From positions 1,302,001 through 1,366,000 of the forward strand of contig NZ_VAWF01000001.1 of assembly GCF_005869845.1 (NCBI RefSeq): a DNA stretch of 64,000 nt, written 5' to 3'. The notes under the pieces are model-generated. The model had not been told where the DNA came from. It saw nothing but the letters and a program-made list of their open reading frames with translations, and ran no database searches. Position 1 is the stretch's first letter, and the number at the start of each line of letters is the position of its first letter. Shown here in pieces: positions 37,548-60,091 of this stretch. The stretch is from Fodinibius saliphilus (GTDB lineage: Bacteria > Bacteroidota > Rhodothermia > Balneolales > Balneolaceae). Position numbers and translations under genes: made by a program.

Positions 37548-39889
37548 TATCTCCATACATCCAAAGCAATTGCGGATAAGACCTCACGTCTGTTTAATCC
37601 ATGCAGTGCCAATTGTTGATCATTTAACTGTAAATAGTACTGATACAGGTCATCGCGACTTCACCAGCTTCCCGTGCCATGGATATCCACTTCTTTGACC
37701 CGCCGGTTACGTTCAAGACGACTGCGTAGATCTTTGGCCAGCTGAAGAAGTTCATCATAGGAATAGCCGGTAAGTGAAATTCTGTGCATAGAAGAGCCTC
37801 CCAAAACCGGTACTGATACCATCCCCCAACCCACTTACTGAAATAGCTGAATTGCCTGTTTTTGCTGCCAAAAACATTGCCTCGGCATAAAATATATACG
37901 GTTCGGTACGTCTGAGGTATTCATCTTTGATATAAAATAACAGGGGTGCCCCGCTATATTCAGAAATGGATGTTTCATAGAATGAAAAAGCTTCTTCGTA
38001 GGGTTTGACTATTTTTTCATAATTACGTGCCATCTTATCAATCTCTTCCAACGGTGTTCCCTGCGGAGTTCGAATGCTTACATAGATACGCTGTTGCCGG
38101 TCGCGTCCGCCCCACGGGCTTCCAAAATAGGTCTCATTAAAAAACTGGTAACTAATACCCCCTATCCAGGGATCGATGTCATCACGGTTATCAAAATAGG
38201 CCTGCGTAAATTCTGGCCAGGCTGTCTCCTTTTCCCAGTCCGGGGTTTCGATGGCAAAAAGTGGAATTCCAATTGCAAATATCAATGCTGCATAAAAGAA
38301 CCATCGCAAGCGGTGACGCCACACAAAAAGCCCCAGTAAAAAGCGTCTTACTTTACCAAACAAGCCGTTTTTCAGGCGATACCATCCGGTTGTTTTCTGT
38401 TCTGGCTGAGCGGGAATAATCCAAATCAGGGCATAGGGAATCCAGCTTAAGGCGATAAGAACAGATGAGATCAGTGTTAACGAAAGTGCTACCGCCAGCG
38501 GTACCAGGAATAGCTGCAGCTCTTCCATTGCAAAGAAAAGGGGGATAAAAATGCCTACCGTAGTAAAGGTACTGCCCAATATAGGTACGAGGGCACGAGG
38601 CAGCTGCTTTTGGATATGACTCAAGCGCTCCTCACGAGCATCAGGTAAGCCGGGGTTGACCTGCTCAAAGACCACCACGGCATTGTCGATAATCATCCCC
38701 AACGAAACCGTAAGTCCCGCCAGCGTAATAATATTGAGCGTATATCCTATAAAGTAGAGCATCCCTACACTCATCAATAGTGAAAAAACAATACTTCCCA
38801 GGATCACAAAAGGAGCACGCAATCGCCGAATAAACACCAGCAGAATACAGAATACCAACAATAAGCTGATAAGAGCCTGGTATTGAAGATTTACAAACTG
38901 ATCACGCAGCCGTTCGGTTGCATCCTCCTCCAGCTGAATCGTCATGTCAGAAGCGATCTCCTGAGAAATACGATCCATTCGACTACGAATCTCTTCTGCC
39001 ACCCCTATGGCATCAGCGCCACTTTCCTTAACAAAACTCATGCTCAGCGCCGGACTCCCGTTAATTCTTTTCAATCTTTTGGCAGGATAGTCCCTGATAT
39101 TTACATCAGCTATAGATGACAACGTTACTGTGCGCTCTGTCTTCGGTAGACTCAACCGAAGGCTTCGTACATCCTCAATTTTATCGAACTGTGGTTCTAT
39201 CAACATACTAATCCGACGACCAGAAGATTCAATATATCCAGAAGAACGCCACTTCATTTTCTTGCGAATACTCCTCATAACTTGACTCGTATTGATGTTG
39301 TATCGTTCGAGCAAGTCGGTATCAAACTCCACCATCAGTGCCGGGTCACGAGCACCGTTAATCTCGATATCTGCGATACCTTCGATCCCGAGTAACGGGA
39401 GACGTATTTTTTTCCGAACGAAGTCAAGGAGTTGACGCACCGGGCGATCTCCACTCAGCGAATACACAACAAAAGTCTGCATATCTTGCAACTCTTCGGG
39501 TACCCGTCGACTAATAGATGGCTGCCGCACATTGGGGGGAGTTTTTCTTGCAAGGCAAACAGGTATTCCTGCAGCTCTACTTTGCGATACTTAATGGGGG
39601 CATTACGGTTAAATGTTATTGTTATATTAGCACGCCCTTCCCGAGAAATTGATTCTATCCGCTTTACATCACGCAACCTGTTTGCAGCTTGCTCTACCGG
39701 CCTGGAAACCTCCTTCTCCATTACTTCAGGGGAAGTGCTGCCCCAGCTATAGTTAACGGTAATTGAAGGCAAGCTTAAGTCAGGCGACATCTCCAAGGCA
39801 ATATTCTGCCAAGCGATTATGCCTATTACTACTACCAATAAATAGCTAAGAGAAATAAAGTAACGTCTATGGAATAGTCTTGATACCAT
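37548..39889 (-). pseudogene. RND efflux permease gene, frameshifted and truncated (second of two)
   Basis: The gene opens at 39889 with the RND N-terminal helix (MVSRLFHRRYFISLSYLLVVVIG) and porter-domain motifs. Near 39535, in a run of six G (plus strand), the frame shifts; the next frame carries on (ISRRVPEELQDMQTFVVYSL) through TM2-TM6, including TM4 AGLTVSLGMIIDNAVVV with the proton-relay Asp. A second frameshift near 37801 leads into SSMHRISLTGYSYDELLQLA, and a stop at 37661 interrupts this; traces continue to 37548. The second half of the second porter domain and TM7-TM12 are missing. Non-functional. Confidence 0.88.
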
Positions 39890-41543: not shown

Positions 41544-43787
41544 TCAATAGAGTTTATTGATCATAGACAGTATGAGATTCCCCGCAATCCCCACTAGAAC
41601 CACTACAACCTCTTCGTGAACATGGACCTGCAAATACTTTTTGTGTACCGACCAGTGATACCACTGAAGCATTTACATTTGACGTATCTTTTGTAATGTT
41701 ACTCCCCAGCTCTTGTAGGTCTTTCTCCAGTCTGGCCGCTAACTGCTCACTTTTATGCCGGTCCTCATTCACCAGCCGAAATAGAATAGGCGGCTCATTA
41801 GCCGAAGGTAATACGTTTAATGCATTTTGGGCTGCCAGCTGCTGGCCGGTCCACCCAGGCTGATCAGCCAGAAATTGTGTTACTTCCTTATCGATTTCAT
41901 CAGCCATATCATAGCCTTGTACGGGAATACTGATAGTAAATTTATTGGGTCCCTCCTCGGAAAGGTTTGAGAGATTCGTCTGATCGGTATATCCCCCTAA
42001 GATCCGTGTAGATCTGCCCTCTGCTTTTTTAGCTGCTACTTTTCTAATCAGACTTTCTGCAACTTCGCGGGTTGTGTGCAACGAAGTATTCCCCGGCAGC
42101 CGTACTTGGTAGCGTACTTCCCGGGGCTCGGTCTCGGGCAACACTCGCTTGGTTACAGATGTAAACAAAAATCCGGCTCCTATCAGAAGTAGCATCATTC
42201 CACTAAAAAACAACCCTTTACGGCGCAATGCCCACTGTAGGCTATCTTCATATCGGTTCCGCAACCGGTTAAAAAATTGGTTAAAGCCTAATACCGTTGA
42301 GTAATCCCCTTCTTTTTTTCGGAATTGTGTGACCAACACCGGTAAAATAAGCAGGGCTACTCCCAGTGAGGCCAATAGGCTAATAGAGAGAGTCCAGGCC
42401 TGATCCTGGAAAAAGGCTCCTTCAAATCCCCCTATAAAAACAAGTGGCAGAAATACCGAAATAGTGGTAAAGGTAGATGCAGTTACGGCCAGTGAAATTT
42501 CGCTTGTTCCTTTGTAGGCTGCTTCCATAATGGAACCAGTTGTGGCCCGGTGCCTGTTGATATTCTCGAGCACAATAATGGCATTATCTACCAAGAGCCC
42601 GATGGCAAGGGTCAGACCACTGAGTGATACGATATTCAATTGGATATCGGAAATGAACATCACAAAAAAGGTGAGGAAAATACTTACGGGAATAGCTATC
42701 CCTATAGTAAAAGGAGTCCGCCAATTATCCAGAAACAGGAATAGTATAATGAATGCTAACAAGGCTCCATACAACAAGGTCTGTAATATGTTATTTATGG
42801 CATTGCGAATAAAAGTCGCATTTTCCTGAAGAACAGTAATACCAATATCTTTGTTTTTGGCTCTTAATTCGTCGAGCAGGGGCAGCATGGTATCGTAGGC
42901 CTCAACGGTGTTGGCCCCGTACTCTTTTTTTACCAGTATACTGAGTACTTCTTTGCCATCAACCAATGAAAATGAGGTGGGATCTGCTTCTCCCAGGGTT
43001 ATATCCGCAACATCACTGAGCCTAAACACCCGCCCCGTGCCCAAGGTTTTAAGCGGTACCTCCTTGACATCTTCAATAGACTGAATACGACTCTGTATTT
43101 TAATGAGTATCGATACCAGCCATCTCGCATTTCACCGGTAGACGTAAACAGGTTTGCCCCAGACACCAGGCTTTCAACTTTACCAAGAGAAATATCATAT
43201 CGATTTAAGGCTTTGGGCCGGTATCGTATTTTAACCTCAGGTTTTACTTCACCCACTAACACAGTTTGGGCAATACCCTCGGCTTGCTCTAATCTTCTGG
43301 ATAGTACCTGTTCGGCCCACCGTTTCAGATTAAGGCGTGTGTTAAAATCGGGATTCGAGTTATCTGCACTTGTGATCCCCAGTATGGCTATGGGTTTATC
43401 AGAAGCGGTATTCTGGACCAGCTGTGGGCGTTTGGCTTGCTCGGACAAAGCAAAACGAATCTGATCAAGTTTTTCTCGCACATTAAGAAAAGAAAGATCC
43501 ATATTTTGTCCCCATTTAAACCTCAGGGAAATAATACTTTGCCCCTGTCGGGCAAATCCGAGGATGCTATCAAGCCCTTGGACCGTGCTCAATACTTCTT
43601 CCATCGGTTCATTAATCTGCTGTTCTATTTCCCGGGGAGCAGCTCCGCTCCAATCGGTCTGTACTAATAAAGTAGGCGAATCAACCTCAGGCAGCAGGTT
43701 AACAGAGAGTTCGGTGAGTGCGATCGTCCCAAAAATAAACGTCGCTAATATTAGCATGAATGCTGCTATCGGACGTTTTAGTAGCAA
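41544..43787 (-). pseudogene. RND efflux permease gene, frameshifted and with internal deletion (first of two)
   Basis: Opens at 43787 with MLLKRPIAAFMLILATFIFG and the first porter domain. Near 43108 one base is missing in the stretch coding YRYS-IKIQSR, so the frame shifts; the second frame resumes at SIEDVKEVPLKTLGTGRVFR and runs through TM2-TM6, with TM4 SGLTLAIGLLVDNAIIVLEN, and into the second porter domain. After KVFAG the frame shifts again to EEVVVVLVGIAGNLILSMIN, which resembles a late helix of RND pumps (GI-VNNAILLVDYIN). A large part of the second half is thus deleted. No membrane-fusion gene precedes it. Confidence 0.87.
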
Positions 43788-44247: not shown

Positions 44248-47200
44248 TTGAAGTCGCTCGAATCTATATTCGGACCCAATTCCGCACTCGTTGAAGAACT
44301 GTTTAACCAATACAAATCTGATCCCTCTTCGGTACCAAATCACTGGAGACAATATTTTGATGAAATTGAAGGGGTTGAAAGTGCTGAGGAGATAAAATCT
44401 GAGCCTCAACAGGCTGGTAATGGTGCACCTGCATCACCCTCGGCTCCTGTTAAGGAAAAACCTACTACTAAAAAAGACACTAAGAAAAAAAAGAAGGAGG
44501 ATAAACAGCTCCCTTCCGGTGCAAAGCTAGAAAAGATTAAAGGGGTTTCCAGTAAGATTGTAGAAAATATGGATGAGAGTCTGGAAGTGCCTACAGCTAC
44601 TTCTGTTCGTGCCCTCCCCATGAAGATGCTTATCGAAGACCGTGCTATTATTAACCGGCATCTGAAGCAACGCAATGAACCGAAGTCGTCATTTACCCAC
44701 TATATTGCTTGGGCTATTATAAAAGCCCTGGAAGAATTCCCCAACATGAACAACTCTTTTATGTATAAAGATGGGGAACCTTATAAAGTAATTCCCGACC
44801 AAGTTAATTTGGGGCTTGCAATTGATGTCCAAAATAAGGACGGATCACGTAACTTGCTGGTTCCCAACATCAAGGGCGTAGACAAGATGAACTTTAAAGA
44901 GTTTCTCTACGCCTATGCTGACCTTGTTGATAAGGCGCGAAATGGAAACCTTGAGATCTCTGATTTTCAGGGTACTACGCTTACGCTTACCAATCCCGGG
45001 ATGATCGGGACTGTTCAATCGGTACCCCGACTGATGAAAACTCAGGGAACAATTATTGCGACCGGTGCTATTGACTACCCTGCCGAGTACCAGTCTATGT
45101 CTCAGGAAGTACTGAACAAGCTGGGCATTAGCAAGGTGATGAACATTACTTCTACTTATGACCACCGGGTTATACAGGGAGCCGAATCCGGATCTTTCCT
45201 AAAGAAAGTGCACAGTCTATTAAATGGAGAAGAAGATTTTTACAGTAATATCTTTGAGGATCTGGAAATTCCATATGATCCCCTCCCCTATGGTGAAGAT
45301 AACTACGTAGGCCAACTTGATGGACAAGGAGCTACGCTTGAACAAAACAAGCGTGCTATTGCTGTAATGCGTTTAATTAATATGTATCGAACACGCGGTC
45401 ATGTACTTGCTGATCTGGATCCACTTAGTGATGAGCCCGGGCACAATCCCGAGCTGGATCTGGAATACTATGATCTTACCCTTTGGGACCTGGACCGAGA
45501 GTTTTATTGCGGCGGCTTGGGCGGTAATGAGAAAGCAACGCTCCGCGAGATCATCAACTTGCTTCGCCAAACCTACTGTGGAAAGATGGGAGCAGAATAT
45601 ATGCACCTTCTTGACCTGGAAGAGCGAAAGTGGTTACGTGAGCGTATGGAGTCTACCACTAATACACCAGAGCTCAACAAAGATCAGAAAGAAGATATTC
45701 TACACAAGCTCAATCAGGCGATGGCCTTTGAGCAGTTTCTGCATAAAAAATATATTGGCCATAAGCGTTTCTCTCTAGAAGGGGCCGATACCCTAATTCC
45801 GATGATGCATCACATGTTGGAAAAAGCGGGTGAAGATAAGGTTGAAAAAATATTTATGGGCATGGCTCACCGGGGACGATTGAATATCCTCGTAAATATT
45901 ATGAACAAACCATACCGAAAGGTTTTTGCGGATTTTGAAGGCAACCTTGATCCCGACAGTATACAAGGATCGGGAGATGTAAAATATCACCTTGGTTCGA
46001 AAGGAACGTATGAGACAACAACGGGCGAAGAGGTTGAAATTGAACTTATGCCTAATCCCAGTCACCTGGAATCGGTAAATCCCGTAGTAGAAGGAGCAAC
46101 TCGTGCTACTCAGGATCATGATGGAGAAGAGGCCGAGAAGAAAAATGTACCGGTGCTCATTCACGGTGATGCTGCTTTTGCCGGACAAGGTGTAGTAGCT
46201 GAAACGCTGAATATGTCGCAGTTAGATGCCTACAAAACGGGCGGTACTGTTCATATTATTATTAACAACCAAATTGGCTTTACTACCTTACCTAAAGATG
46301 GCCGTTCTACGGAATATGCCTCTGACTTGGCAAAAATGATTCTGGCACCCATCTTTCATGTCAACGGTGATAACCCGGAAGAAGCGGTACATGCTATACA
46401 GATGGCTTTTGAATATCGCCAGAAGTTTGGTAAAGATGTTGTTATTGATCTTATCGGCTTCCGTAAGCACGGACATAATGAAGGTGATGAACCCGCCTTT
46501 ACACAACCCGGTATGTATAAAGAAATAGAAAATCATCCAACGGTTCGCGATATCTATACCGAGCGACTGCTTGAAAAAGGCGAATTTACCGAAGATGAGA
46601 TGCAGGAGATCTTTGATGAGTTTGATGAACTTCTGCGTGATGCATTTGAAGATGCAAAAAATGCTTCTCCCCTTAAAGTCACTGAGGATATGATTGATCG
46701 TCACGAGACGGAACAAGAGGAGCGGCCGGAATATCCTGATACTACCTTCCCTGAAGAAGAGCTTAAAGATATTGCCGTTAAGTTAAATACAGTACCAAAA
46801 GACTTTGACGCGAATCCCAAGCTGTTAAAGCAGCTGGCTAAGCGGGCTGAAATTGTTGATAAAAATGAAAAGAAAATTGACTGGGGATTTGCAGAAGCCC
46901 TGGCATTTGGCTCTCTGCTAAAGAAAGGAACCACTGTTCGTTTAACCGGACAGGATGCTGAACGCGGTACTTTCTCTCACCGCCATGCCATTTTACATGG
47001 TACTGAAACCGACCAAGAATTTATTCCGCTTAATAATCTTGAAGAAGATCAAGCACCCTTCTTCCCCTATAACAGTCTGCTCAGTGAATTTGCCTGTGTA
47101 GGTTTTGAATTTGGATACAGTGCTGCCAAACTAGATGCCCTGGTTATCTGGGAAGCACAGTTTGGTGATTTTGCCAACGGAGCCCAAGTACAAATTGATC

Positions 47201-47901
47201 AATTCATTTCTGCAAGTGAAGCCAAATGGGGACAAAAATCAGCGCTGGTAATGACGCTTCCCCATGGTTACGAGGGTCAGGGCCCGGAACACTCTTCGGC
47301 CCGATTAGAACGGTACCTGCAGCTTTGTGCTGAAGATAATATGCAGGTTGCCAACCTTACTACTCCGGCTCAGTATTTCCACATACTGCGTAAACAAGCA
47401 AAGCAAGATGATAAGAAACCTCTTATTATCATGTCACCAAAAAGCTTATTACGTCATCCATTGGCAACCTCTAAGGCTTCTGATCTTGCGGAAGGTGTAT
47501 TTCAACCTTTTATCGCTGATCAGGAAGTAGAAGATAAAAACGACATTGATCGCTTGGTCATCTGCTCTGGTAAAGTCTATTACGACCTCTATAAACAGCG
47601 TCAAGAGGATGAGATCGATAATGTCGCTATTGTACGCTTAGAGCAATATTATCCATTCCCTGATGCAGATATTAATGATATTCTCTCTGAGTATGATCAT
47701 GTTGATGATATTGTCTGGTGCCAGGAAGAACCCAAGAATATGGGGGCTTGGACCTTTGTAGCTCCGCGTATTTCACAAGAGTTGCAAAAGGGCCAGAACC
47801 TGCGTTACGCTGGTCGACAAGCTTCGGCATCCCCGGCAGCAGGACATAAGAAAGTCCATAAAGCTGAACAAGAAAAACTGGTCAGCGAAGCTCTACATTA
47901 A
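44248..47901 (+). CDS. kgd: fused E2-E1 2-oxoglutarate dehydrogenase (Kgd/SucA type)
   Basis: A 1217-residue TCA-cycle enzyme. TTG at 44248 is the start, giving the usual E1 N-terminal binding segment (ALVEELFNQYKSDPSSVPNHW). After a Lys/Ala/Pro-rich linker (about 45-95) comes an E2 succinyltransferase catalytic domain (about 105-345) with active-site TYDHRVIQGAESG near 300-312. The TPP-dependent E1 part (about 360-1217) has AHRGRLNILVNIMNKPY near 540, GDAAFAGQGVVAETLN near 640 and NNQIGFTT near 672. No lipoyl domain is visible; as in mycobacteria it would use a separate E2. Three terminators follow. Confidence 0.93.
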   Translation: MKSLESIFGPNSALVEELFNQYKSDPSSVPNHWRQYFDEIEGVESAEEIKSEPQQAGNGAPASPSAPVKEKPTTKKDTKKKKKEDKQLPSGAKLEKIKGVSSKIVENMDESLEVPTATSVRALPMKMLIEDRAIINRHLKQRNEPKSSFTHYIAWAIIKALEEFPNMNNSFMYKDGEPYKVIPDQVNLGLAIDVQNKDGSRNLLVPNIKGVDKMNFKEFLYAYADLVDKARNGNLEISDFQGTTLTLTNPGMIGTVQSVPRLMKTQGTIIATGAIDYPAEYQSMSQEVLNKLGISKVMNITSTYDHRVIQGAESGSFLKKVHSLLNGEEDFYSNIFEDLEIPYDPLPYGEDNYVGQLDGQGATLEQNKRAIAVMRLINMYRTRGHVLADLDPLSDEPGHNPELDLEYYDLTLWDLDREFYCGGLGGNEKATLREIINLLRQTYCGKMGAEYMHLLDLEERKWLRERMESTTNTPELNKDQKEDILHKLNQAMAFEQFLHKKYIGHKRFSLEGADTLIPMMHHMLEKAGEDKVEKIFMGMAHRGRLNILVNIMNKPYRKVFADFEGNLDPDSIQGSGDVKYHLGSKGTYETTTGEEVEIELMPNPSHLESVNPVVEGATRATQDHDGEEAEKKNVPVLIHGDAAFAGQGVVAETLNMSQLDAYKTGGTVHIIINNQIGFTTLPKDGRSTEYASDLAKMILAPIFHVNGDNPEEAVHAIQMAFEYRQKFGKDVVIDLIGFRKHGHNEGDEPAFTQPGMYKEIENHPTVRDIYTERLLEKGEFTEDEMQEIFDEFDELLRDAFEDAKNASPLKVTEDMIDRHETEQEERPEYPDTTFPEEELKDIAVKLNTVPKDFDANPKLLKQLAKRAEIVDKNEKKIDWGFAEALAFGSLLKKGTTVRLTGQDAERGTFSHRHAILHGTETDQEFIPLNNLEEDQAPFFPYNSLLSEFACVGFEFGYSAAKLDALVIWEAQFGDFANGAQVQIDQFISASEAKWGQKSALVMTLPHGYEGQGPEHSSARLERYLQLCAEDNMQVANLTTPAQYFHILRKQAKQDDKKPLIIMSPKSLLRHPLATSKASDLAEGVFQPFIADQEVEDKNDIDRLVICSGKVYYDLYKQRQEDEIDNVAIVRLEQYYPFPDADINDILSEYDHVDDIVWCQEEPKNMGAWTFVAPRISQELQKGQNLRYAGRQASASPAAGHKKVHKAEQEKLVSEALH

Positions 47902-49068: not shown

Positions 49069-49518
49069 TCAAAGAACAGGAACCTCTTTATTCAAAAGGT
49101 ATGGACAATATTTTGCTGAATTTCGTTCGGTTTCTTCCAGTTCAACTTCATACAGAAAGCCGTTTCCGTTAGTTCCTTCTTTTATAGGATCTTCTAGTTG
49201 ATGATAAAAAACTTTTACCAAATTTTCTGTAGATGGTAATACACCATCTAAAAAGTCTACATCAATATTTAAATTTTTGTGATCACACTTTTCAACAATC
49301 GTTTTCTCAATTATTGATTTCAAGACTGAGAGATCAATTACATATCCTGTTTCATCATCTGGTGTTCCTGCAACGGTTACCCGTATGGTATAATTATGTC
49401 CATGCCAATTTTCATGATTACATTTCCCAAATGTTTCTTTATTCCACTTTTTAGATTTTTCAGGGTTATGTAATCGATGAGCGGCATTAAAATGTGCCTT
49501 TCTTGTAACAAAAACCAA
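49069..49518 (-). CDS. 6-pyruvoyltetrahydropterin synthase / QueD family enzyme
   Basis: A 149-residue enzyme. Zinc ligands are His14 (FNAAHRL), His39 and His41 (WHGHNY); the catalytic Cys33 is in FGKCNHENWHGHNY, spaced as in animal PTPS. DHKNLNID near 95-102 and the C-terminal EVELEETE complete the family pattern. It would act on dihydroneopterin triphosphate made by the next gene, giving either pyruvoyltetrahydropterin (for tetrahydrobiopterin-like cofactors) or 6-carboxy-tetrahydropterin (for queuosine). No other queuosine gene is here, so the branch is undecided. Confidence 0.88.
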   Translation of the reverse strand: MVFVTRKAHFNAAHRLHNPEKSKKWNKETFGKCNHENWHGHNYTIRVTVAGTPDDETGYVIDLSVLKSIIEKTIVEKCDHKNLNIDVDFLDGVLPSTENLVKVFYHQLEDPIKEGTNGNGFLYEVELEETERNSAKYCPYLLNKEVPVL

Positions 49519-49656: not shown

Positions 49657-49688
49657 GAAGGAGGTCCCGGATCAACGGAACCCCCTTG
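49657..49688 (-). terminator. probable terminator after the TonB receptor gene
   Basis: Imperfect GC-rich hairpin (AGGAGGTCCCG with CGGAACCCCCTT) followed on the minus strand by TTCTTTATTTTGGG, about 55 bp after the receptor gene. Confidence 0.5.
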
Positions 49689-49742: not shown

Positions 49743-52655
49743 CTAAAAAGAATATTTTAAGCTAAGGCTTACCGAGCGATGAGGTTCATACCGACTGTAG
49801 ATTTGATCTATTGATTGATAACCTTGATATAACTCTTGTCGCGCTTCATTTAGAATATTAGATACATTCAGGCTTAAAGAATACCGATCGTTTTGCCCGA
49901 ATGACTTATTTAAATTGAATTTAAGGCTGTGAAAGGGATCAGAGTATACATCCAGGAATATACCTCCACCAACCAACACCAAGGTCTTGCCCTTCACATT
50001 ATAGAATAGCCCTGCATCTAAACTGATATTGGGATTTTTATAAGTGAATCCGGCATTAATGATATATGGTGCTTGTCCTGCCATTTGTCGCTGGTCATTA
50101 ATATTCTGCCCCTCTCTTTTATAGTTTTTACGAGCCTCATATTCATTTGGGGTCATATCGATGATCGATTCAACGATGGTCACATTACTGCTAAATCCGA
50201 CATTGCTTAAGGATGACGATATAAAATTGAGTGATTTTCGAATTTCTAACTCAGCCCCCAACACTTGTCCTTTTCCTACGTTTCGTGGCTGGTATTCACT
50301 GGTTGTGGTAGAGTTTCGAAGGCGCACTAACTCAATTGGATCATCAAAAGACTTATAGAACAAACTGAGTGATAACAATTGATCACGTTTATAAAATTTC
50401 TCCCACCTTAAGTCAAAATTATGGATTCGTGTTTCCCCTAAGTTACCATCCCAACTGCAGTTACCTCCATCCTTGTCGCACCCAAAAGGAAATAACCCAC
50501 CATTGAACCTTCGACTTGAAACAGGATCCAATATCTGGGCAAAAGATAACTCCCGAAAAGATGGGCGAGCAATTGTCTTCGAGTATGAGAATCGCAAATT
50601 CATGTCCTCAGCTAACTGGTACGTAATATTTGCTGAAGGAAAGAAATCAAGTGCATCCAACACTTTTTCATCTGCCAGATTCTGGGCACTGTTATCCCCT
50701 TGCGCAAAACGAACAGAACGTCCAGTGTGGCGTTGTATATAGTTTTCAATCCGTAATCCAAAGGTTGTTTTTAAACCGGGAAACAAACTAAACTCATTGG
50801 ACACGAAAAATGATGTTTTATGTACATTAGAACTATACGCATTGGGATTCGGATCAGAGTTACCGCTTTGATAGTAGATGACTCCATTTTCACGGCCATA
50901 TATATTATCATCTCTTAAAATTTCTGCAGGGTCACCTGTCCAATCAGGCTGGGCACCAAAAAACTGCATATCAAATGATAAAATTTCATAGTCGCGTTGT
51001 TTATAGATCTGGCTTCCTCCGAATTTAAGTTTTGCAGGCTCCCCAAAGAGTTCATAATCTTTGGTAATATTAAACCGTCCAACCAAGTTAACCTCATCCA
51101 TATCTCGCCATAATCGACTTGGAAATCCTCCGGCTCCGGCATTAAAAATATGGTTATCACCACGCATGGTATAGGTGGTTTTTCTAATGTCAGGAGCCGA
51201 CATTTTTGAAAAGGTTGGTGAGAGTCGCCAATCTAAAGTCCAGTTGCTATTACTAAAATAATGTGTCCCATTGAGTAACGCATTCGAAATACTTCGTTCA
51301 CTGTATTCCAAATTATAAGATTCGCCCAGATAACCTGATTGCCCGGGGGCTGTTTGACTGTTATCAACATCCATTACCGCTGCTTTATTTACTCCATTCT
51401 GCAAATGCATTGCCGTTAACTTGAATTTAGAGCGGCTCGTTTTAAATGATAGTCCTGCCAGCCCCCCTGCCAGGATATTTCGTTCTGAAACAACACCTGA
51501 CTGCGTATTGGCACGTACCAGTTCATAAGTAGCAGGGTCAGCAGAAATTTGATACTCTCCATACTCTCTGTTATTAAAATGAGTCGTAGCGTTTTTATAA
51601 GTACCGGAAAAGATGTACCCCAACTTATTTCCCGTTCCTACACCAAACTGATCCCCCAGTGATACACTGAAACTATAGTCCATCAAATTTGATTCTTTTT
51701 GGGGACCAAGGGTTGAGCTAAACTTATTTACAAAATTATAAACTTCATTTTCACTACCGTTAAAAGGAGTTGGAATGTCACCTTTTCCCGCCCCTTCTGG
51801 CAGGTCACGTGCTCCTCCGTCAAAACCAAGATAATCGGAATTACTGCCTTGGTAGTTCAAGAATTGATTATTAAAATGCATCTGCGGCTTAAACGAAGTA
51901 CTTATAGATATATCAAAAATGGGCTTTTCCGGGAAATCTATAGTTTCAATATTCACGATCCCCCCCGTGAAATCAGCCGGAAGTTCTGCAATAGCTGTTT
52001 TATTGATTACCATATTCTCGATAAGATTGGTTGGGAAAATATCTATCTGCAAACTATTCCGCGTAGGATCGAGACTGGGAATTTCAACTGAATTTAACAT
52101 CGTATTTGTATATCGATCCCCCAACCCACGCACGTAAACATACTTGCCCTCTTGTATAGAAACTCCTGTTACTTTTTTTAGTGCCGAGGCTGCATCGGAA
52201 GCACCTGTTCGGGTGATTTTTTCTGCAGATATACCGTCAAGAACGTGAGCAGAAGTTTTCTTTTTTGTCATTAAGGCCGCTTCAGAGATATTAATAGACT
52301 CTGCTGTTACTACCACCTCTTCCATCTCTTCCACCGATTTCTGAATTCGAATATTATCAAGCAAGGTAACGTCACCCGGTGATACTTTTACTGACTCTAT
52401 GGTAATAGGCTTATAAGAAACATATGAAATACGAACATCATACATTCCGGCGGGCAGCTTAATATCAAATTCTCCATCAAAATCAGTTGCTGCACCTTTC
52501 GATGTACCTTTTACTACTACTGTTACTCCATATACCGGTTCTCCATTGGTGTTCTCGATAACTGTACCTCTAATGGTACCTTCTTCCTGGGCATAAGAGA
52601 CATTGATAATCCCAAAAAAGAAAATGAGTAATGTAAGTTTAAATAGATTATTCAT
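49743..52655 (-). CDS. TonB-dependent outer membrane receptor
   Basis: About 970 residues. ATG 52655 gives a signal peptide (MNNLFKLTLLIFFFGIINVS); an ATG at 52667 is also possible. A carboxypeptidase-regulatory-like domain follows at about 28-105 (IRGTVIENTNGEPVYGVTVV, SKGAATDFDGEFDIKLPAG). The plug domain (about 125-260) has YVRGLGDRYTNTMLNSVEIP, and a 22-strand barrel runs to the terminal LKYSF. Such receptors import large or scarce nutrients with energy from TonB-ExbB-ExbD; ExbB/ExbD-type genes are 6-8 kb away. No SusD-like partner; instead the upstream gene encodes a beta-helix lipoprotein, 127 bp before it on the same strand. Confidence 0.92.
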   Translation of the reverse strand: MNNLFKLTLLIFFFGIINVSYAQEEGTIRGTVIENTNGEPVYGVTVVVKGTSKGAATDFDGEFDIKLPAGMYDVRISYVSYKPITIESVKVSPGDVTLLDNIRIQKSVEEMEEVVVTAESINISEAALMTKKKTSAHVLDGISAEKITRTGASDAASALKKVTGVSIQEGKYVYVRGLGDRYTNTMLNSVEIPSLDPTRNSLQIDIFPTNLIENMVINKTAIAELPADFTGGIVNIETIDFPEKPIFDISISTSFKPQMHFNNQFLNYQGSNSDYLGFDGGARDLPEGAGKGDIPTPFNGSENEVYNFVNKFSSTLGPQKESNLMDYSFSVSLGDQFGVGTGNKLGYIFSGTYKNATTHFNNREYGEYQISADPATYELVRANTQSGVVSERNILAGGLAGLSFKTSRSKFKLTAMHLQNGVNKAAVMDVDNSQTAPGQSGYLGESYNLEYSERSISNALLNGTHYFSNSNWTLDWRLSPTFSKMSAPDIRKTTYTMRGDNHIFNAGAGGFPSRLWRDMDEVNLVGRFNITKDYELFGEPAKLKFGGSQIYKQRDYEILSFDMQFFGAQPDWTGDPAEILRDDNIYGRENGVIYYQSGNSDPNPNAYSSNVHKTSFFVSNEFSLFPGLKTTFGLRIENYIQRHTGRSVRFAQGDNSAQNLADEKVLDALDFFPSANITYQLAEDMNLRFSYSKTIARPSFRELSFAQILDPVSSRRFNGGLFPFGCDKDGGNCSWDGNLGETRIHNFDLRWEKFYKRDQLLSLSLFYKSFDDPIELVRLRNSTTTSEYQPRNVGKGQVLGAELEIRKSLNFISSSLSNVGFSSNVTIVESIIDMTPNEYEARKNYKREGQNINDQRQMAGQAPYIINAGFTYKNPNISLDAGLFYNVKGKTLVLVGGGIFLDVYSDPFHSLKFNLNKSFGQNDRYSLSLNVSNILNEARQELYQGYQSIDQIYSRYEPHRSVSLSLKYSF

Positions 52656-52782
52656 TGGACTGATCACTAAGCCTAAAAATAAAATTGTGTGCTGTTTAAA
52701 AATGTGTGCTGACTTTTAAAAGGAGTTTGCCTTTAGGTTCGCTAAAGGCAAACTCATAGAATAGCTTACTTAATAGATGGTT

Positions 52783-54297
52783 TTATTCAAGTCCGAGATC
52801 ACTGAGCGTACCAGACTGGCTGGCCCAAGTAAATCCAAACTTGCTAACATCGGCTCCAACCGTTGCACTATTAAGATCTGCAACTTCTGATACTTCGTTA
52901 TTATCAACTAGAGCATCGGGGAAGTATCCTTTCAGTGTTGTATTAGAAGGGAGTACCGCTTGAATAGAGGTGATAGCATAACCATTTTGGTTAGCAGCAT
53001 AGTCATCGTAATCACTGGAGAACATGTTATCAGCGGCCCCATTATCATCCGTAGCCAAACCGAAGAACAGTACATTCTGAACGTTAGAATCAGTATTGGC
53101 ATCCACATCAATCAGCTCCGAACCGTTGGTTTCAACATAGGCTGTTACATTTTTAATAGTATGCCCACTGCCTGTATATGAACCTTCGGGACCGTCAAGC
53201 TCCATAGTAGAGCCTGAAGGACTGATAGTAACCACATTGTCGATTGTGCCTGCCCAAGCCTGATCGGTATCTATAGCATCATCGCCGTTGTTCCAGACTA
53301 ATACATTCGTAACATTTACTGTACCACCGAAGAATTCAACACCGTCATCCTGGTTAGCAACAATTTCAACATTTTCGATGGTAGTTCCAGAACCAACGCC
53401 ACCGAGTGAGAGTCCATTAATTTCGTTCCCTGAACCGATGTTTGTTCCACCGTGTCGAATTGTAATGTAGCTTATAGAACCAGAACTATCCCCGGCATCA
53501 TCACCGCCATAGAGTCCATTATCATCGGTGCTTGGTATACCTTCAATTGATGCAGGATCGTTGGATGCTGAGATGGGAGCATTTCCAAGGACTATAACAC
53601 CGCCCCAGAGACCTCGTTGCTCAGAATTGAGATTTGGGCTGGCAAAGTTACCTTTGTCTACCATCTCGGGAGTAATTTCATCTGCTACAGACGTAAAAAT
53701 AATGGGCGCACTTGCAGTACCATTAGCATTTAAAGTAGCATCACGGGCAACAAGAAGAGCAGTCGAATTGGTACCAGAACCAGCTTCTCCTTTTACTACA
53801 GCTCCGCCCTCAATAGTAAGTGTAGCGCCGGCTTCTACGGCAATACGTCCTGCCAGTATATACGTTTTACCGTCTTCCCAAGTGATATCATCCGTAATGT
53901 TATCTGTTACGATAATTTCTTTTTCTTCATCATTCACTTCCACTACAGCTGTTGCTTTACTACTCAGTCCTTCTGTATCAGAAACAGAAAGATCAACCGA
54001 ACCTGCCCCTGCATTAGTAGCAGAAAAGCTAACTACAATATCTCCGTTAGTTGCTTCTTTTTTAGGTTCTGAAGAAATGGTGGCATCACCATTAGATGCA
54101 GAAACAGTTGCCGAAGAGTATCCAGCATCAGAAGAAAAACTAAAAGTAAGATCTACTGAGCTACCTACCAAGGCAGTTTGTTTTCCCGGAGCATCTACCG
54201 AAGGTGCAGATGGATTGGAAGAGGTTGAATCGTTATCACATGAAACAAAGAGTGCTAGCATGAGTAGCACGCCAACAATATTAGTTAGTATCTTCAT
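52783..54297 (-). CDS. surface lipoprotein with predicted parallel beta-helix
   Basis: A 504-residue lipoprotein (lipobox FVSC, Cys20) followed by a Ser/Asn tether and an Ig-like or cadherin-like stretch (about 35-125). From about 130 the pattern is of a right-handed parallel beta-helix: short strands with repeated Asn/Asp/Gly turns, for example AGRIAVEAGATLTIEGGAVV, EQRGLWGGVIVLGNAPIS, YITIRHGGTNIG, ENVEIVANQDDGVEFFGGTV and VTNVLVWNNGDDAIDTDQ. The chain is very acidic and contains many Asp-Gly/Asp-Asn pairs that could bind Ca2+. It precedes the TonB receptor and may be its surface-exposed partner. No enzymatic residues identified. Confidence 0.8.
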   Translation of the reverse strand: MKILTNIVGVLLMLALFVSCDNDSTSSNPSAPSVDAPGKQTALVGSSVDLTFSFSSDAGYSSATVSASNGDATISSEPKKEATNGDIVVSFSATNAGAGSVDLSVSDTEGLSSKATAVVEVNDEEKEIIVTDNITDDITWEDGKTYILAGRIAVEAGATLTIEGGAVVKGEAGSGTNSTALLVARDATLNANGTASAPIIFTSVADEITPEMVDKGNFASPNLNSEQRGLWGGVIVLGNAPISASNDPASIEGIPSTDDNGLYGGDDAGDSSGSISYITIRHGGTNIGSGNEINGLSLGGVGSGTTIENVEIVANQDDGVEFFGGTVNVTNVLVWNNGDDAIDTDQAWAGTIDNVVTISPSGSTMELDGPEGSYTGSGHTIKNVTAYVETNGSELIDVDANTDSNVQNVLFFGLATDDNGAADNMFSSDYDDYAANQNGYAITSIQAVLPSNTTLKGYFPDALVDNNEVSEVADLNSATVGADVSKFGFTWASQSGTLSDLGLE

Positions 54298-54647
54298 GAT
54301 ATATTATCTATGGATTAGTTTGTGGATTAGATTGAGATCGCAAACTTATAGTTTGAATATTAGCATCGATTTAAATCAGTATTACCAAATCATTATTATG
54401 CTGATTTGAAATCGACTTAGAAGGGAGGAAAAGAACCCACGGTAAAGAATATGCCGTTGATCTTATATAAACAGTACATTCCATTCTAAGTGTGCTTATT
54501 TTTTGCATGCCTAGTTGTTCCTTAGCATTACATGCCTATGATAGCACACTCAGATTGTATCAGTATTACGTTGGGGTTATGACTCTATTATTCTAACTTT
54601 AAGGCAATGTTAAGAAGGGCAGTAACAGTGTTGTAAGACAGGTCCAA
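54298..54647. other. leader/intergenic stretch with a structured segment
   Basis: Between ftsH and the lipoprotein gene. Apart from the ftsH terminator it holds a perfect 8-bp inverted repeat AGTGTGCT (54489-54496) / AGCACACT (54543-54550) enclosing two copies of CATGCCTA. It could be a structured leader of the lipoprotein transcript. Confidence 0.4.
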
Positions 54648-54717: not shown

Positions 54718-56736
54718 TTATTCCTCCTCATCTGTAGTCTCTTCTTCGCTTTCATCTGCTACAGCGATCCCATTATTAAGTTCGGAATCAAAAATTCCTT
54801 CTGGGTATTTACCTTCGGGATGGTCACCAAGCAACGCCTTTAAGTCATTGTGATCAATAACTTCTTTATCAAGCAATGTCTCAGCCATTTTTTCAAGTTG
54901 ATTTTTATGTTTGGTAAGCAGTTTTTTGGTCCGTTCATAATTTTGGCGAATAATCTCTTTTACTGCTTTATCTATATTCTCAGATGTCTTTTCAGAATAT
55001 TTCTTATTGAATCCATAACTGTTATCCGGATTCTGAGAATCTTTTAAAGAGATATATCCCAGCTCTTCACTCATTCCATATTCAGCAACCATAGCAAAGG
55101 CCATATTGGTAATGCGCTCCAGATCATTTTGCGCCCCGGTTGAAATACGATCAAAAATAATCTCTTCTGCTATCCGGCCCCCAAGTAGTGCACAAATCTT
55201 ATCATTAAGCTCTTCCGTTGTCATTAGGAAGCGATCTTCCAGCGGTGTTTGCAGGGTATACCCCAAAGCTGCCAGTCCGCGTGGAACAATACTTACTTTC
55301 AACACCGGATCGGTATGCTGCAGATACCATCCCACAATTGCGTGTCCGGCCTCATGGTAAGCAACAATTTCACGTTCTTTGGGACTAATAAGCTTATTCT
55401 TTTTCTCAAGGCCGGCAATAACGCGCTCGATAGAATCCTGGAAATCTTCCATCTCTACCGCTTCTTTACCACGTCGAGCAGCCATCAGTGCTGCCTCATT
55501 ACAAAGGTTGGCCAATTCCGCTCCGGCAAAACCTGGAGTTTGCGAAGCCAATAGCTTGAGCTCGATATCATCAGACAAAATTAGATTTCGAGTATGAACT
55601 TTAAGCACTTCAACTCGTCCCCTCAGATCCGGTTTATCAATCACAATCTGCCTATCGAAGCGACCGGGGCGTAATAATGCTGAGTCCAACACATCAGGGC
55701 GATTGGTTGCAGCCATAATAATGACCCCGTTGTCACTATTAAAACCATCCATTTCACTTAATAACTGATTCAAGGTATTCTCTCGCTCATCATTTGAGCC
55801 CATTGACATCCCTTTACCCCGTGTACGCCCAATAGCATCAATTTCATCGATAAAAATTATACATGGGGCCGTTTCTTTGGCTTTTTTGAACAGGTCACGA
55901 ACACGTGCAGCCCCTACCCCAACAAACATTTCCACGAAATCAGATCCGCTCAAACTATAAAAAGGGACATCGGCTTCACCTGCAGTCGCCTTAGCCATCA
56001 ACGTTTTACCGGTACCCGGAGGGCCTACCAATAGAGCCCCTTTGGGGAGTGTACCACCCAGTTTTGTAAATTTTTTAGGATTCTTGAGGAACTCCACAAT
56101 TTCTTCAACCTCAGCTTTTGCTTCCTCCAATCCTGCCACATCTTTAAACGATACCTTATTTTCTTTCTGTTTGTCATATAGTGAGGCTTTATTTTTACCA
56201 ATATTCAAAACCTGCTGTCCTGGATTCATCCGGCGGAAAATAAAGACCCAAAAGGCTACCGCTATTGCAATAAAGATTATCCAAACAAAGAGACTACTAA
56301 ACCAGTCCTCTTCAATTTTGACATCGTACGTAACATTATTTTTATCTAGAACAGGCCGGATTTCATCTCCATCCAGCATAGTGGTACTGAATCTATTGGG
56401 TACCTCTGCACCTATTAAGGGAAGTGGTTCTTCCTTTTCTTTAGAACCTTTCACGATACCTTCCTCTACGGCTTTATTATTATACTCACCGGTAATCCTT
56501 GAACCGTTGGTAATAACAATATTGTCCACATAGCCTTTTTCTACATATTCCAGGAAGGTGCTATATTTTATCCGGCTGCCATCAGTTGTATTGAAGAAAT
56601 AAAATTGTATTCCCAACAAAACCAGCAAAAGAATGACATAAATCCATATAGGAAATTTAGGGATTAAGTTATTGTCTTCTTTAGACTTCCTTTGCCCACT
56701 ATCGTTGTTATCTGATGGCTTTTTTTTGTTCGACAT
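54718..56736 (-). CDS. ftsH: ATP-dependent zinc metalloprotease FtsH
   Basis: About 672 residues from ATG 56736 ([10 protein letters not shown]); an upstream ATG at 56754 adds six. Two membrane helices (about 27-47 and 145-165) flank a periplasmic domain. The AAA+ domain has Walker A GPPGTGKT near 240, Walker [12 protein letters not shown], and the second-region-of-homology stretch [19 protein letters not shown]. The protease motif HEAGH is near 461, with the third zinc-ligand Asp in the following helical region ([13 protein letters not shown]). FtsH degrades misfolded membrane proteins and regulators. The C-terminal tail is acidic ([11 protein letters not shown]). Confidence 0.96.
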
Positions 56737-56893
56737 TGAGTCACTTATTAACAATTAAATCTTATCTCAGTAAAGATACGGCAAATTTAATAATTCTGCG
56801 TAGCCAATCTGCCACTTTCCTAAATCAATATTTGATAGGCATACCGGCTTACAGAAAATCATTCCCATCTCCTATCATTTAATAGTATAAGAG

Positions 56894-58016: not shown

Positions 58017-58475
58017 TTAGCCACCGCCAGGTTGTTCCTGCTTCGTAGAATAATTTACCCGAAGGGTACCTGCTTCACGGAGCTCTTCCTGAATATCGGT
58101 TACTTTACCGAATTCAGCCTCATCGTGTACACGTAGCGACACAATAAGTCTCGGTTCTTCTTTCAACTTATCGTACATTATGTTACGAACAGCAGAAACG
58201 TCATCGATAATCGAATCATCGATCTGGATTTTAACTGGTCCCAGTTTATTTCCAGATAACTTCTGCGGTCCTACATAGATGTAGCTAACAAGTCGTTTCT
58301 GTTCAATTTTTTCAATGTTTTCTGCTTCAGTAAAGTCTACCTTTACCTGTAATGTAACCTCACGAAGTACCGTTGTCACCATAAAGAAGATGAGCAACAT
58401 AAATACTACATCAGGCATTGCGGATGTAGGTACATCCTGACTTGTTTTGGCAGACTTTTTCTCAAAATGTCCCAT
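58017..58475 (-). CDS. exbD: ExbD/TolR-family protein (second copy)
   Basis: A 152-residue protein with one N-terminal membrane helix (about 22-42, PDVVFMLLIFFMVTTVLREV) whose Asp is in the proton-path position SAMPDVVFMLL, and a periplasmic domain. ExbD proteins form the moving shaft of the ExbB-ExbD motor that drives TonB receptors. The motif for an Asp at the start of the helix is retained. It is 12 bp after the other exbD; the two probably form hetero-oligomers or serve different partners. Confidence 0.9.
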   Translation of the reverse strand: MGHFEKKSAKTSQDVPTSAMPDVVFMLLIFFMVTTVLREVTLQVKVDFTEAENIEKIEQKRLVSYIYVGPQKLSGNKLGPVKIQIDDSIIDDVSAVRNIMYDKLKEEPRLIVSLRVHDEAEFGKVTDIQEELREAGTLRVNYSTKQEQPGGG

Positions 58476-58487
58476 AATTAAATACTC

Positions 58488-59039
58488 TTATTGATTGGGC
58501 TCTGCGATTGAAATTTTCTTAGGATACATGTCTTGTATCTTTTTCTGCTTCTCACTGCCTTCATCCAGCCTTTTATATGGAACCCCATAATTAGACTGTG
58601 AAGCTTGGTTTCGAAGCTCGGCATAAGCGCCCATCACTTCATCAAGCATATTGATATAAACATTGTAGGGCGTTGCCCGTTGTGTTTTAATCGATACAAT
58701 TGCTTTATCGGGTGAATCCGATAAACTAGGATCTTGTCCCCTGTTGGTTACAAAATCCTTCAATTTCTGCTTGACCTGTGTAACAGGCGTTGGTTCTGTT
58801 TCCTCTGTCCCCATCAATACTTGCCCTTGCTCGTTCACAAGGATTTTCATCATGTTTCTCTTTTTAATTGGTGGGGGTTCCTGTTCTTCTTCAGGAGCCG
58901 GAGGTAACTGTAAACCAATACCCGTATCAACATCAATAGTTGTTACAAGCAGGAAGAAGATAAGTAACAGGAAGGCAATATCTGCCATTCCCGCACCACC
59001 GACTTCCGGGTCTTCTCGTTCTCTATCTCTTCCAAACAT
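58488..59039 (-). CDS. exbD: ExbD/TolR-family protein (first copy)
   Basis: A 183-residue relative of the next gene, with N-terminal basic segment (MFGRDREREDPEVGG), one membrane helix with the proton-path Asp (GMADIAFLLLIFFLLVTTID, about 17-36), then a Pro/Glu-rich linker and a periplasmic domain that ends in a helical region (KKIQDMYPKKISIAEPNQ). It is longer than a normal ExbD (about 140 aa). It is the third gene of the exbB-small protein-exbD-exbD run. Confidence 0.9.
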   Translation of the reverse strand: MFGRDREREDPEVGGAGMADIAFLLLIFFLLVTTIDVDTGIGLQLPPAPEEEQEPPPIKKRNMMKILVNEQGQVLMGTEETEPTPVTQVKQKLKDFVTNRGQDPSLSDSPDKAIVSIKTQRATPYNVYINMLDEVMGAYAELRNQASQSNYGVPYKRLDEGSEKQKKIQDMYPKKISIAEPNQ

Positions 59040-59056
59040 GGTTAAGTCCTAAATGG

Positions 59057-59326
59057 TTATAGATTAAAAGTACCGCGAAGGCCGGTAAGTAGCATAAACA
59101 AAAACATTACAGCCATCATAAATAACATGGTACCAACTGCTGCTTCAGTGACGGTTCCAGCGATTCCAAAAGCGGCACCGAAAACGACAAAAGGAACAAG
59201 CATAGAAATTATCTTTTTCCGGTCCTGCTTGCCTTTAATCATGCTTTGGATCCCGGAAACAACCATTCCTATCACGCCAAGCGCAATCAATCCCAAGCCT
59301 AAACCTAGTGCTATAGATACAATCAT
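59057..59326 (-). CDS. small membrane protein between exbB and exbD
   Basis: An 89-residue, very hydrophobic protein with three likely helices (about 3-28, 41-61, 65-85) separated by a basic loop (MIKGKQDRKKII). Glycine-rich first helix. No family recognised from sequence. It lies 48 bp after exbB and 17 bp before exbD on the same strand, so it is probably an accessory of this motor complex; this is inferred from position only. Confidence 0.7.
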   Translation of the reverse strand: MIVSIALGLGLGLIALGVIGMVVSGIQSMIKGKQDRKKIISMLVPFVVFGAAFGIAGTVTEAAVGTMLFMMAVMFLFMLLTGLRGTFNL

Positions 59327-59374
59327 AATATTAGGTAAGAATTCGTTAAAAAGGTAGTAATTGTCAGACTTATT

Positions 59375-60091
59375 TTATTCTTCTGCTTCTCCAGAAGTAT
59401 CTACAATCTGCTCACCTTCTTTGAGCATAACAATAGAGTCAATAAGCGTGATAGAACTTTCTTCCATCTCAGAAATCAGACGATCAATTTTAGAAACACA
59501 GTAATTATAACCAATCTGGAGAATAATACCTGCGAGAAGTCCACCTGCAGTTGTCAAAAGTGCTACCTTAATACCACCGGCAACAAGAGTAGGTGAAATA
59601 TCACCAGCTTCTTCAATTGCATCAAAAGCCTGAATCATTCCTACTACAGTACCGAGGAATCCAAGCAGCGGTGCAATGGCAATAAAGAGAGATAGCCAAA
59701 CAAGACCTCGCTCAAGGAAACTCATTTCGATAGAGCCATAAGCGGATATTGCTTTTTCAGCAGCTTCGATACCTTCGTCAACACGCATCAACCCCGCTTG
59801 GAATACAGAAGCAACAGGCCCTCGTGTTTCAGCACAAAGTTCTTTTGCAGCAGAAACTCCACCTTCTTGGAGAGCTTCTTGCACATCAACAATAAACTTT
59901 CGTGTATCAATATCAGCTAGATTTAAGGTGATAATACGCTCCAGGAAAATGGCCAAACCTAAAATCAAGGCGACAAGGACCGGCCACATAAAACCACCCT
60001 CATTACCTTCATTAAATTTTTCAACTAGTAAATTAAAAAATCCTTGGTCCACTCCTGCTTGAAGGAAGAAGAGAGTTATAGACGTTGTCAT
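59375..60091 (-). CDS. exbB: MotA/TolQ/ExbB proton channel family protein
   Basis: A 238-residue protein with three membrane helices: about 35-52 (MWPVLVALILGLAIFLERII), 130-155 (LVWLSLFIAIAPLLGFLGTVVGMIQAFD, the family signature GLLGTV-GMI) and 165-190 (VALLTTAGGLLAGIILQIGYN). The conserved region near 140-190 identifies the family. The gene order with two exbD copies makes it the ExbB subunit of a proton-driven motor that energises TonB-dependent import or a Tol-like function. 160 bp separate it from dsbD. Confidence 0.92.
   Translation of the reverse strand: MTTSITLFFLQAGVDQGFFNLLVEKFNEGNEGGFMWPVLVALILGLAIFLERIITLNLADIDTRKFIVDVQEALQEGGVSAAKELCAETRGPVASVFQAGLMRVDEGIEAAEKAISAYGSIEMSFLERGLVWLSLFIAIAPLLGFLGTVVGMIQAFDAIEEAGDISPTLVAGGIKVALLTTAGGLLAGIILQIGYNYCVSKIDRLISEMEESSITLIDSIVMLKEGEQIVDTSGEAEE

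Follow-up and report, generated by a model that had tools for sequence, protein, structure and literature searches.

A beta-helix lipoprotein and its TonB-dependent receptor in Fodinibius saliphilus: a candidate phosphate-starvation uptake pair of the ElpS/CC0171 kind

The window analyzed here is a stretch of 64,000 nucleotides from Fodinibius saliphilus (contig NZ_VAWF01000001.1, positions 1,302,001 to 1,366,000), in which a gene for a beta-helix lipoprotein is followed on the minus strand by a gene for a TonB-dependent receptor. The two genes probably constitute a pair for outer-membrane uptake under phosphate starvation, of the kind known from ElpS and CC0171 of Caulobacter crescentus, a reading that is held with modest confidence. 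Computed results cover the pairing, the modeled fold, the repeats, the hairpin and the phosphate neighborhood of the homologs, and the published accounts are cited from excerpts.

The lipoprotein-receptor pair

49743-52667, minus strand: TonB-dependent receptor gene, second of the pair (974 amino acids from a GTG start)
52783-54297, minus strand: beta-helix lipoprotein gene, first of the pair (504 amino acids), 115 base pairs (bp) ahead of the receptor gene
54238-54297, minus strand: signal peptide and lipobox (FVSC, Cys20), followed by the acidic stretch DNDSTSSN
53926-54216, minus strand: immunoglobulin (Ig)/PKD-like domain (residues about 28-124)
52867-53928, minus strand: right-handed parallel beta-helix (residues about 124-477; AlphaFold model, VIA-align)
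53194-53349, minus strand: acidic ladder D317/D339, D318/D340, E321/D343/E366 and D345/D368, spaced 22-23 residues
54652-54684, minus strand: terminator-like hairpin 3' of ftsH, parting ftsH from the pair
52723-52755, minus strand: intercistronic hairpin with a 14-bp stem, in the gap between lipoprotein and receptor
49658-49687, minus strand: terminator-like hairpin 3' of the receptor

Three Pfam domains exceed their cut-offs in the receptor: CarboxypepD_reg-like (residues 32-120), plug (138-235) and barrel (462-938); the matches to PF07715 and PF00593 identify it as a TonB-dependent receptor. An ATG at 52655, five codons inside the open reading frame (ORF), is a likelier start than the GTG. 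SusCD and PusCD systems likewise combine an N-terminal carboxypeptidase-regulatory-like receptor domain with a partner lipoprotein, but at 65 bits the window receptor falls far short of the 368-bit cut-off for the SusC/RagA type (TIGR04056), and that assignment was rejected. A SusD-family identity was likewise rejected for the lipoprotein, which matches no SusD model in Pfam or NCBIfam; SusD is also absent from the families listed for 27 homologs.

The AlphaFold model of the lipoprotein, built on an alignment of 27 sequences, has a mean pLDDT of 88.0 and a pTM of 0.79. VIA-align superposes residues 124-492 on right-handed beta-helix proteins, with Z 18.1-21.1 and a root-mean-square deviation of 2.9-4.1 over 235-285 residues in the top 11 rows; these proteins include tailspikes, alginate lyases, AlgE epimerases and polygalacturonases. 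The N-terminal part, residues 23-124, superposes on PKD/Ig-like domains with Z 9.4-10.4. Foldseek by itself returned weak whole-length matches, and neither the lipoprotein nor its profile found a relative at E 0.1 among the sequences of solved structures, the one match (0.27) being at chance level. A beta-propeller of the XusAB/BtuBG type was rejected, the model being a beta-helix with an Ig-like domain. Most of the 26 further homologs in the alignment lack the Ig-like domain or have a different one. The first-pass annotation had described two terminated genes, a TonB receptor coupled to a beta-helix lipoprotein with an Ig-like N-terminal part in place of SusD; Pfam, AlphaFold and VIA-align bear this out, and the two terminator-like hairpins flank the pair, with the 14-bp stem between its genes.

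Conservation of 90% or more is reached at 49 positions across 112 single-module sequences; 12 of these positions hold Asp or Glu, with no Lys, Arg or His among the 49, and the top Lys/Arg position, 281, reaches 84%. The spacing of the ladder acids, taken from residue positions and the strand pattern of the model rather than from coordinates, corresponds to one helix turn, and the acids should therefore stack as a ladder. Tandem homologs with 2 to 4 beta-helix modules per protein also occur (L037:7428-13031, L044:7816-10728 and L207:6423-10493).

Such a fold invites the alternative that the lipoprotein is a surface enzyme, either a glycan lyase or hydrolase or a phosphoesterase, which cuts a phosphorus-bearing polymer and leaves the product to be imported by the receptor. 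The beta-helix does resemble polysaccharide lyases, GH28 and C-5 epimerases, its many conserved acids are what an acid-based active site needs, and plant-glycan binding or hydrolysis was proposed for the Flavobacterium lipoproteins by the authors who described them (PMC8115612). A common fold is, however, no proof of function: the Pectate_lyase match (PF03211) stays under the Pfam cut-off at 19.4 versus 25 bits, so that the family name was rejected, no basic residue attains 90% conservation, and ElpS, whether refolded or immunoprecipitated, had no phosphatase activity in the excerpted experiments (PMC2996285). An enzyme is accordingly considered unlikely, albeit the most serious of the competing explanations.

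The association of the two genes was assessed in 58 related genomes, using E-value limits of 1e-6 for the lipoprotein query and 1e-60 for the receptor query. The former matched 37 genomes and the latter 36; both occurred together in 35, the receptor alone in 1, the lipoprotein alone in 2 and neither in 20. All 34 listed receptor genes have a same-strand lipoprotein gene; the distance stays within 130 bp for 29 of them and amounts to 720-832 bp for the other 5. An ORF of 206-237 amino acids occupies four of the five wide gaps; in L052-L055, from another family of the order, it sits between lipoprotein and receptor. The receptor was present in 33 of 38 fetched stretches; two lack it since a contig end cuts the lipoprotein, and three are weak or fragmentary matches without a receptor. 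Scanning named genomes with the lipoprotein alignment yielded 505 confirmed places, the best 80 of which are called named loci below. A same-strand receptor gene comes directly 3' of the lipoprotein gene in 77 of these, with -36 to 458 bp between the two; in the remaining three, the lipoprotein gene abuts a contig end or is cut by one. The lipoprotein profile is present, at E up to 1e-20, in 130 of 198 genomes sampled across Bacteroidota. The co-occurrence analysis suggested at first pass thus returns a pairing that is real and conserved.

A lipobox was recognized by pattern in 22 of the 27 aligned homologs and by eye in one more, while the other four combine a standard signal peptide with a C-terminal sorting domain of the type IX secretion system (T9SS) in its place. 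Because one family uses two alternative anchoring routes, lipobox or T9SS tail, surface exposure is supported, and a surface location, as initially proposed, is likely from these sequences. The exchange of the lipobox for a T9SS tail among homologs is new here, as is the observation that the conserved beta-helix positions are acidic and none of them basic.

The intercistronic hairpin likewise recurs. The five closest pairs have intercistronic stems of 11-14 bp that differ in sequence, and among 74 gaps of 40-200 bp between lipoprotein and receptor genes, 50 contain a stem of at least 10 bp, versus 56 of 1480 shuffles. These stems fit a partial terminator, by which the lipoprotein would be made in excess of the receptor. 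In published systems, XusB outnumbers XusA (PMC13142918), and the lipoprotein FI makes up 18.7% of the Flavobacterium exoproteome (PMC8115612). Unequal amounts would also be permitted by the hairpin if the lipoprotein worked outside import, activating or scaffolding secreted phosphatases, with the receptor as a sensor or separate importer. Overexpression of ElpS raises extracellular alkaline phosphatase, and ElpS is released; deletion of elpS, however, left phosphatase activity as before (PMC2996285). The near-exclusive pairing with one receptor subfamily moreover favors joint work, which renders a phosphatase activator improbable.

Pho-box-like repeats and phosphate-related neighbors

54586-54614, minus strand: three Pho-box-like repeats with an 11-bp period (CTTAACA-N4-CTTAAAG-N4-AATAATA), about 317 bp ahead of the lipoprotein start

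Similar repeats were sought in the 400 nucleotides ahead of the first gene by scoring three CTTAACA units at 11 bp (maximum 21). For 28 related pairs, the mean best score is 16.04, versus 11.92 (standard deviation 0.14) for dinucleotide shuffles, 13.04 on the antisense strand and 12.0-12.5 for other periods; a score of at least 16 is reached by 20 of the 28, and by none on the antisense strand. The 76 named loci with at least 200 nucleotides upstream average 14.82 versus 12.27, and 24 of them reach 16, versus 4 on the antisense strand. Under a uniform 300-nucleotide rule, 16 of 43 pair-gene promoters attain a score of 16, whereas none of the 170 other promoters that these stretches contain does so. 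Promoter-like sites were no commoner than in shuffles (14 versus 15.8).

The repeats are shared with a known type of phosphate gene. When the 14 best of 22 pstS-family matches were scored for two units (maximum 14), 11 upstream regions scored at least 12, that of the window's own genome included, and shuffles gave 8.97. In this genome, CTTAATATTGAGTTAACA lies about 104 bp ahead of pstS-pstC. In the direct-binding motif of Riemerella PhoP, a flavobacterial Pho regulator, the most strongly conserved letters are TTTAACA (PMC9603813). These sequence patterns suggest control of the pair by phosphate starvation.

Neighboring genes were counted within about 10 kb of the 80 named loci, one representative per cluster being checked by Pfam. 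A response-regulator/kinase cluster, which was not subdivided and has PhoB/PhoR-like genes among its members, occurs near 24 loci, PitA (PF01384) near 16, a phosphate porin (PF07396) near 10 and an Na/Pi cotransporter near 8. Three of 18 plasmid records were opened. An Alteromonas macleodii plasmid carries, in order, phoB, phoR, a phosphate-binding protein, an oxygenase, the homolog, its receptor, ExbB/ExbD and TonB; this homolog has 1356 amino acids and three family modules (749 bits), and the receptor scores 581 bits. In Indioceanicola, a two-module homolog (526 bits with the family profile) and a receptor (468 bits) precede genes of the type II secretion system (T2SS), which is the elpS-cc0171-gsp order. 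Separately, a MORN-repeat gene adjoins the pair in 19 of the 80 loci and a dGTPase-like HD-domain gene in 18 (e.g., L115, L122, L147 and L150).

OmpR-family regulators generally bind direct repeats, and the 11-bp repeats could thus belong to a different member of that family, with the pair serving another nutrient such as iron, a metal or a carbohydrate. An acidic conserved face would suit metal binding, and the Riemerella Pho motif has itself been likened to that of ArcA (PMC9603813). Yet the same repeats stand ahead of pstS, phosphate or regulator genes of the above types lie near 44 of the 80 named loci, and the Flavobacterium relatives are induced when phosphate is depleted but not when nitrogen or iron is limiting (PMC8115612), so that another nutrient is very improbable. 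Iron uptake as the main role was rejected, as it found no support and a phosphate neighborhood was seen instead. Among the three limitations considered at first pass (phosphate, iron and polysaccharide), the evidence consequently favors phosphate.

The published systems closest in description point the same way. In Caulobacter crescentus, elpS, encoding a surface lipoprotein made at phosphate starvation, neighbors a receptor gene, cc0171, and the co-occurrence of the two was already remarked upon (PMC2996285); several receptors and the T2SS belong to the Caulobacter PhoB regulon (PMC11208175). The window likewise has a gene for a pectin-lyase-like lipoprotein, probably surface-exposed, beside one for a TonB-dependent receptor. 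Unlike ElpS-CC0171, which was compared by description, it has no adjoining T2SS genes and has an Ig-like domain. In Flavobacterium johnsoniae, again compared by description, the lipoproteins FI and FII and their TonB-dependent receptors (Fjoh_3856/3857 and Fjoh_0546/0545) form two pairs induced by low phosphate, FII is annotated with a pectin-lyase fold (IPR011050), and the lipoproteins are modestly homologous to the Caulobacter lipoprotein (PMC8115612). One of these pairs lies beside phoBR, whereas the window pair lies between ftsH and queD. Deletion of Fjoh_3856 or Fjoh_0546 left colony expansion unaffected (PMC7807042). A search of open-licence PubMed Central for further literature on elpS-cc0171 or the Flavobacterium pair genes found nothing more. 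The initial suggestion that this is an uptake system of a new kind therefore does not hold, since elpS-cc0171 (PMC2996285) and the Flavobacterium pairs (PMC8115612) are, as excerpted, of the same kind.

The ftsH-queD locus

54718-56754, minus strand: ftsH, one border of the locus
49069-49518, minus strand: QueD/6-pyruvoyl-tetrahydropterin-synthase-like gene, the other border
58017-60091, minus strand: TonB-type energizer genes, ExbB-like (59375-60091) and ExbD-like (58488-59039 and 58017-58475)

The ExbB gene and the two ExbD genes lie directly upstream of thiL-ftsH and the pair. A survey of 40 stretches, comprising the window, the 38 fetched ones and one named, placed a pair between ftsH and queD in 23. 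These loci fall into three types: five are of the window type, with the lipoprotein first, and the two others, with the receptor first, number 7 and 11. In a receptor tree of 61 sequences, made by a quick method with SH-aLRT support only, the window-type receptors (6 rows including Gracilimonas amylolytica) nest in a 31-row clade with support 100, which otherwise consists of 24 Bacteroidota receptors and one from Verrucomicrobiota; the remaining 27 related receptors are placed elsewhere in the tree. Lipoprotein identities, at 54-72% inside the window type and 26-39% to the other 21 aligned sequences, are concordant with the tree. Because the tree sets the window type apart and the identities agree, the data suggest that the pair arrived from a Bacteroidota donor and displaced another pair at ftsH-queD. 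Differential loss of old paralogs is the alternative history.

Of the seven family members that lack a lipoprotein match, five were inspected. Two of them have ftsH directly beside queD; a same-genus relative retains a receptor remnant of 121 amino acids at ftsH-queD, another has two unrelated ORFs there, and the last has a 182-amino-acid ORF that by eye resembles a lipoprotein end. By sequence, the window pair groups with Bacteroidota pairs at a locus where its relatives hold unlike pairs, remnants or nothing, and this too is new here. In 8 of the 23 loci, as well as in the relative with the receptor remnant, arsenic genes (ArsR, ArsM, ArsC-like and ACR3) lie between the pair and queD (L032, L033, L044, L049, L050, L060, L062, L088 and L215, with L033 lacking ArsR). 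As arsenate is a phosphate mimic, their presence fits phosphate traffic at this locus.

Elsewhere in the window, two further observations were made. The gene at 44248-47901 encodes a 2-oxoglutarate dehydrogenase E1 of 1217 amino acids with, by eye, an apparent E2 (succinyltransferase) catalytic domain near the N-terminus, an arrangement that we take to resemble the actinobacterial fusion. An AcrB-family resistance-nodulation-division transporter is spread over separate ORFs (37755-39530, 41554-43044 and 42999-43787), which may mean that the pump gene is broken or split.

A possible route for phosphorus uptake

From these elements, we infer the following course of events. At low phosphate, a PhoB-type regulator bound to the upstream 11-bp repeats would switch on the lipoprotein-receptor operon, and the intercistronic hairpin would yield more lipoprotein than receptor. 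The lipoprotein, set on the cell surface, would use the acidic ladder on its beta-helix to capture a phosphorus-containing ligand, probably via a bound metal that may bridge the acids to phosphate. The ligand would then be passed to the receptor and drawn into the periplasm with energy from ExbB/ExbD/TonB, where phosphatases and Pst would continue its processing. By analogy with XusAB, such capture and hand-over is a plausible mechanism and the best available; in XusAB and BtuBG of Bacteroides, a surface lipoprotein other than SusD likewise serves as a lid on a TonB-dependent receptor.

Several points weigh against phosphate uptake by this route. The XusB lid is a siderophore-binding beta-propeller, unlike the beta-helix and phosphate context seen here, and XusA (9GBC), the top solved-structure match of the receptor, is matched over residues 10-257 only, at 43.5 bits. 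Conserved acids without conserved basic residues would be odd for direct phosphate binding. The excerpted Caulobacter work reports that cc0171 is constitutive, that its deletion leaves ElpS production unchanged and that no change in intracellular phosphate was observed (PMC2996285). The count of phosphate or regulator genes near 44 of 80 named loci has no random background for comparison, and no receptor is annotated within 8 kb of the Marinobacter plasmid homolog. The repeat consensus was picked after the site in the window had been seen and with an eye to the cyanobacterial Pho box, and in the window and its close relatives the repeats stand about 317 bp upstream versus about 100 bp for pstS. 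Because the window's own genome is not enriched over a reversed control, with 17 versus 15 matches to the three-unit pattern and 9 versus 12 to the two-unit pattern, the CTTAACA motif alone defines no regulon.

A bolder extension of the phosphate-starvation pair can be offered tentatively, as a possibility somewhat less probable than not. TonB-receptor lids, so far SusD and the beta-propellers, would gain a third architecture in the beta-helix lipoprotein, which would feed the receptor a phosphorus ligand captured by a metal-loaded acidic ladder. The pair would be a widespread phosphorus importer swapped as a cassette at ftsH-queD, where related bacteria have any of three deeply divergent pairs, a remnant or no pair at all.

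Phosphorus is often limiting, and how large phosphorus compounds pass the outer membrane of Bacteroidota is an open question. Pairs of this kind were flagged in 2010 and 2020, in the excerpts drawn on here without a ligand or mechanism. The present data yield a testable operon model with Pho boxes common to pstS, an intercistronic hairpin, an acidic ladder and two routes of surface anchoring. If the pair has been swapped between lineages at a fixed locus, ligand specificity would become comparable between close relatives.

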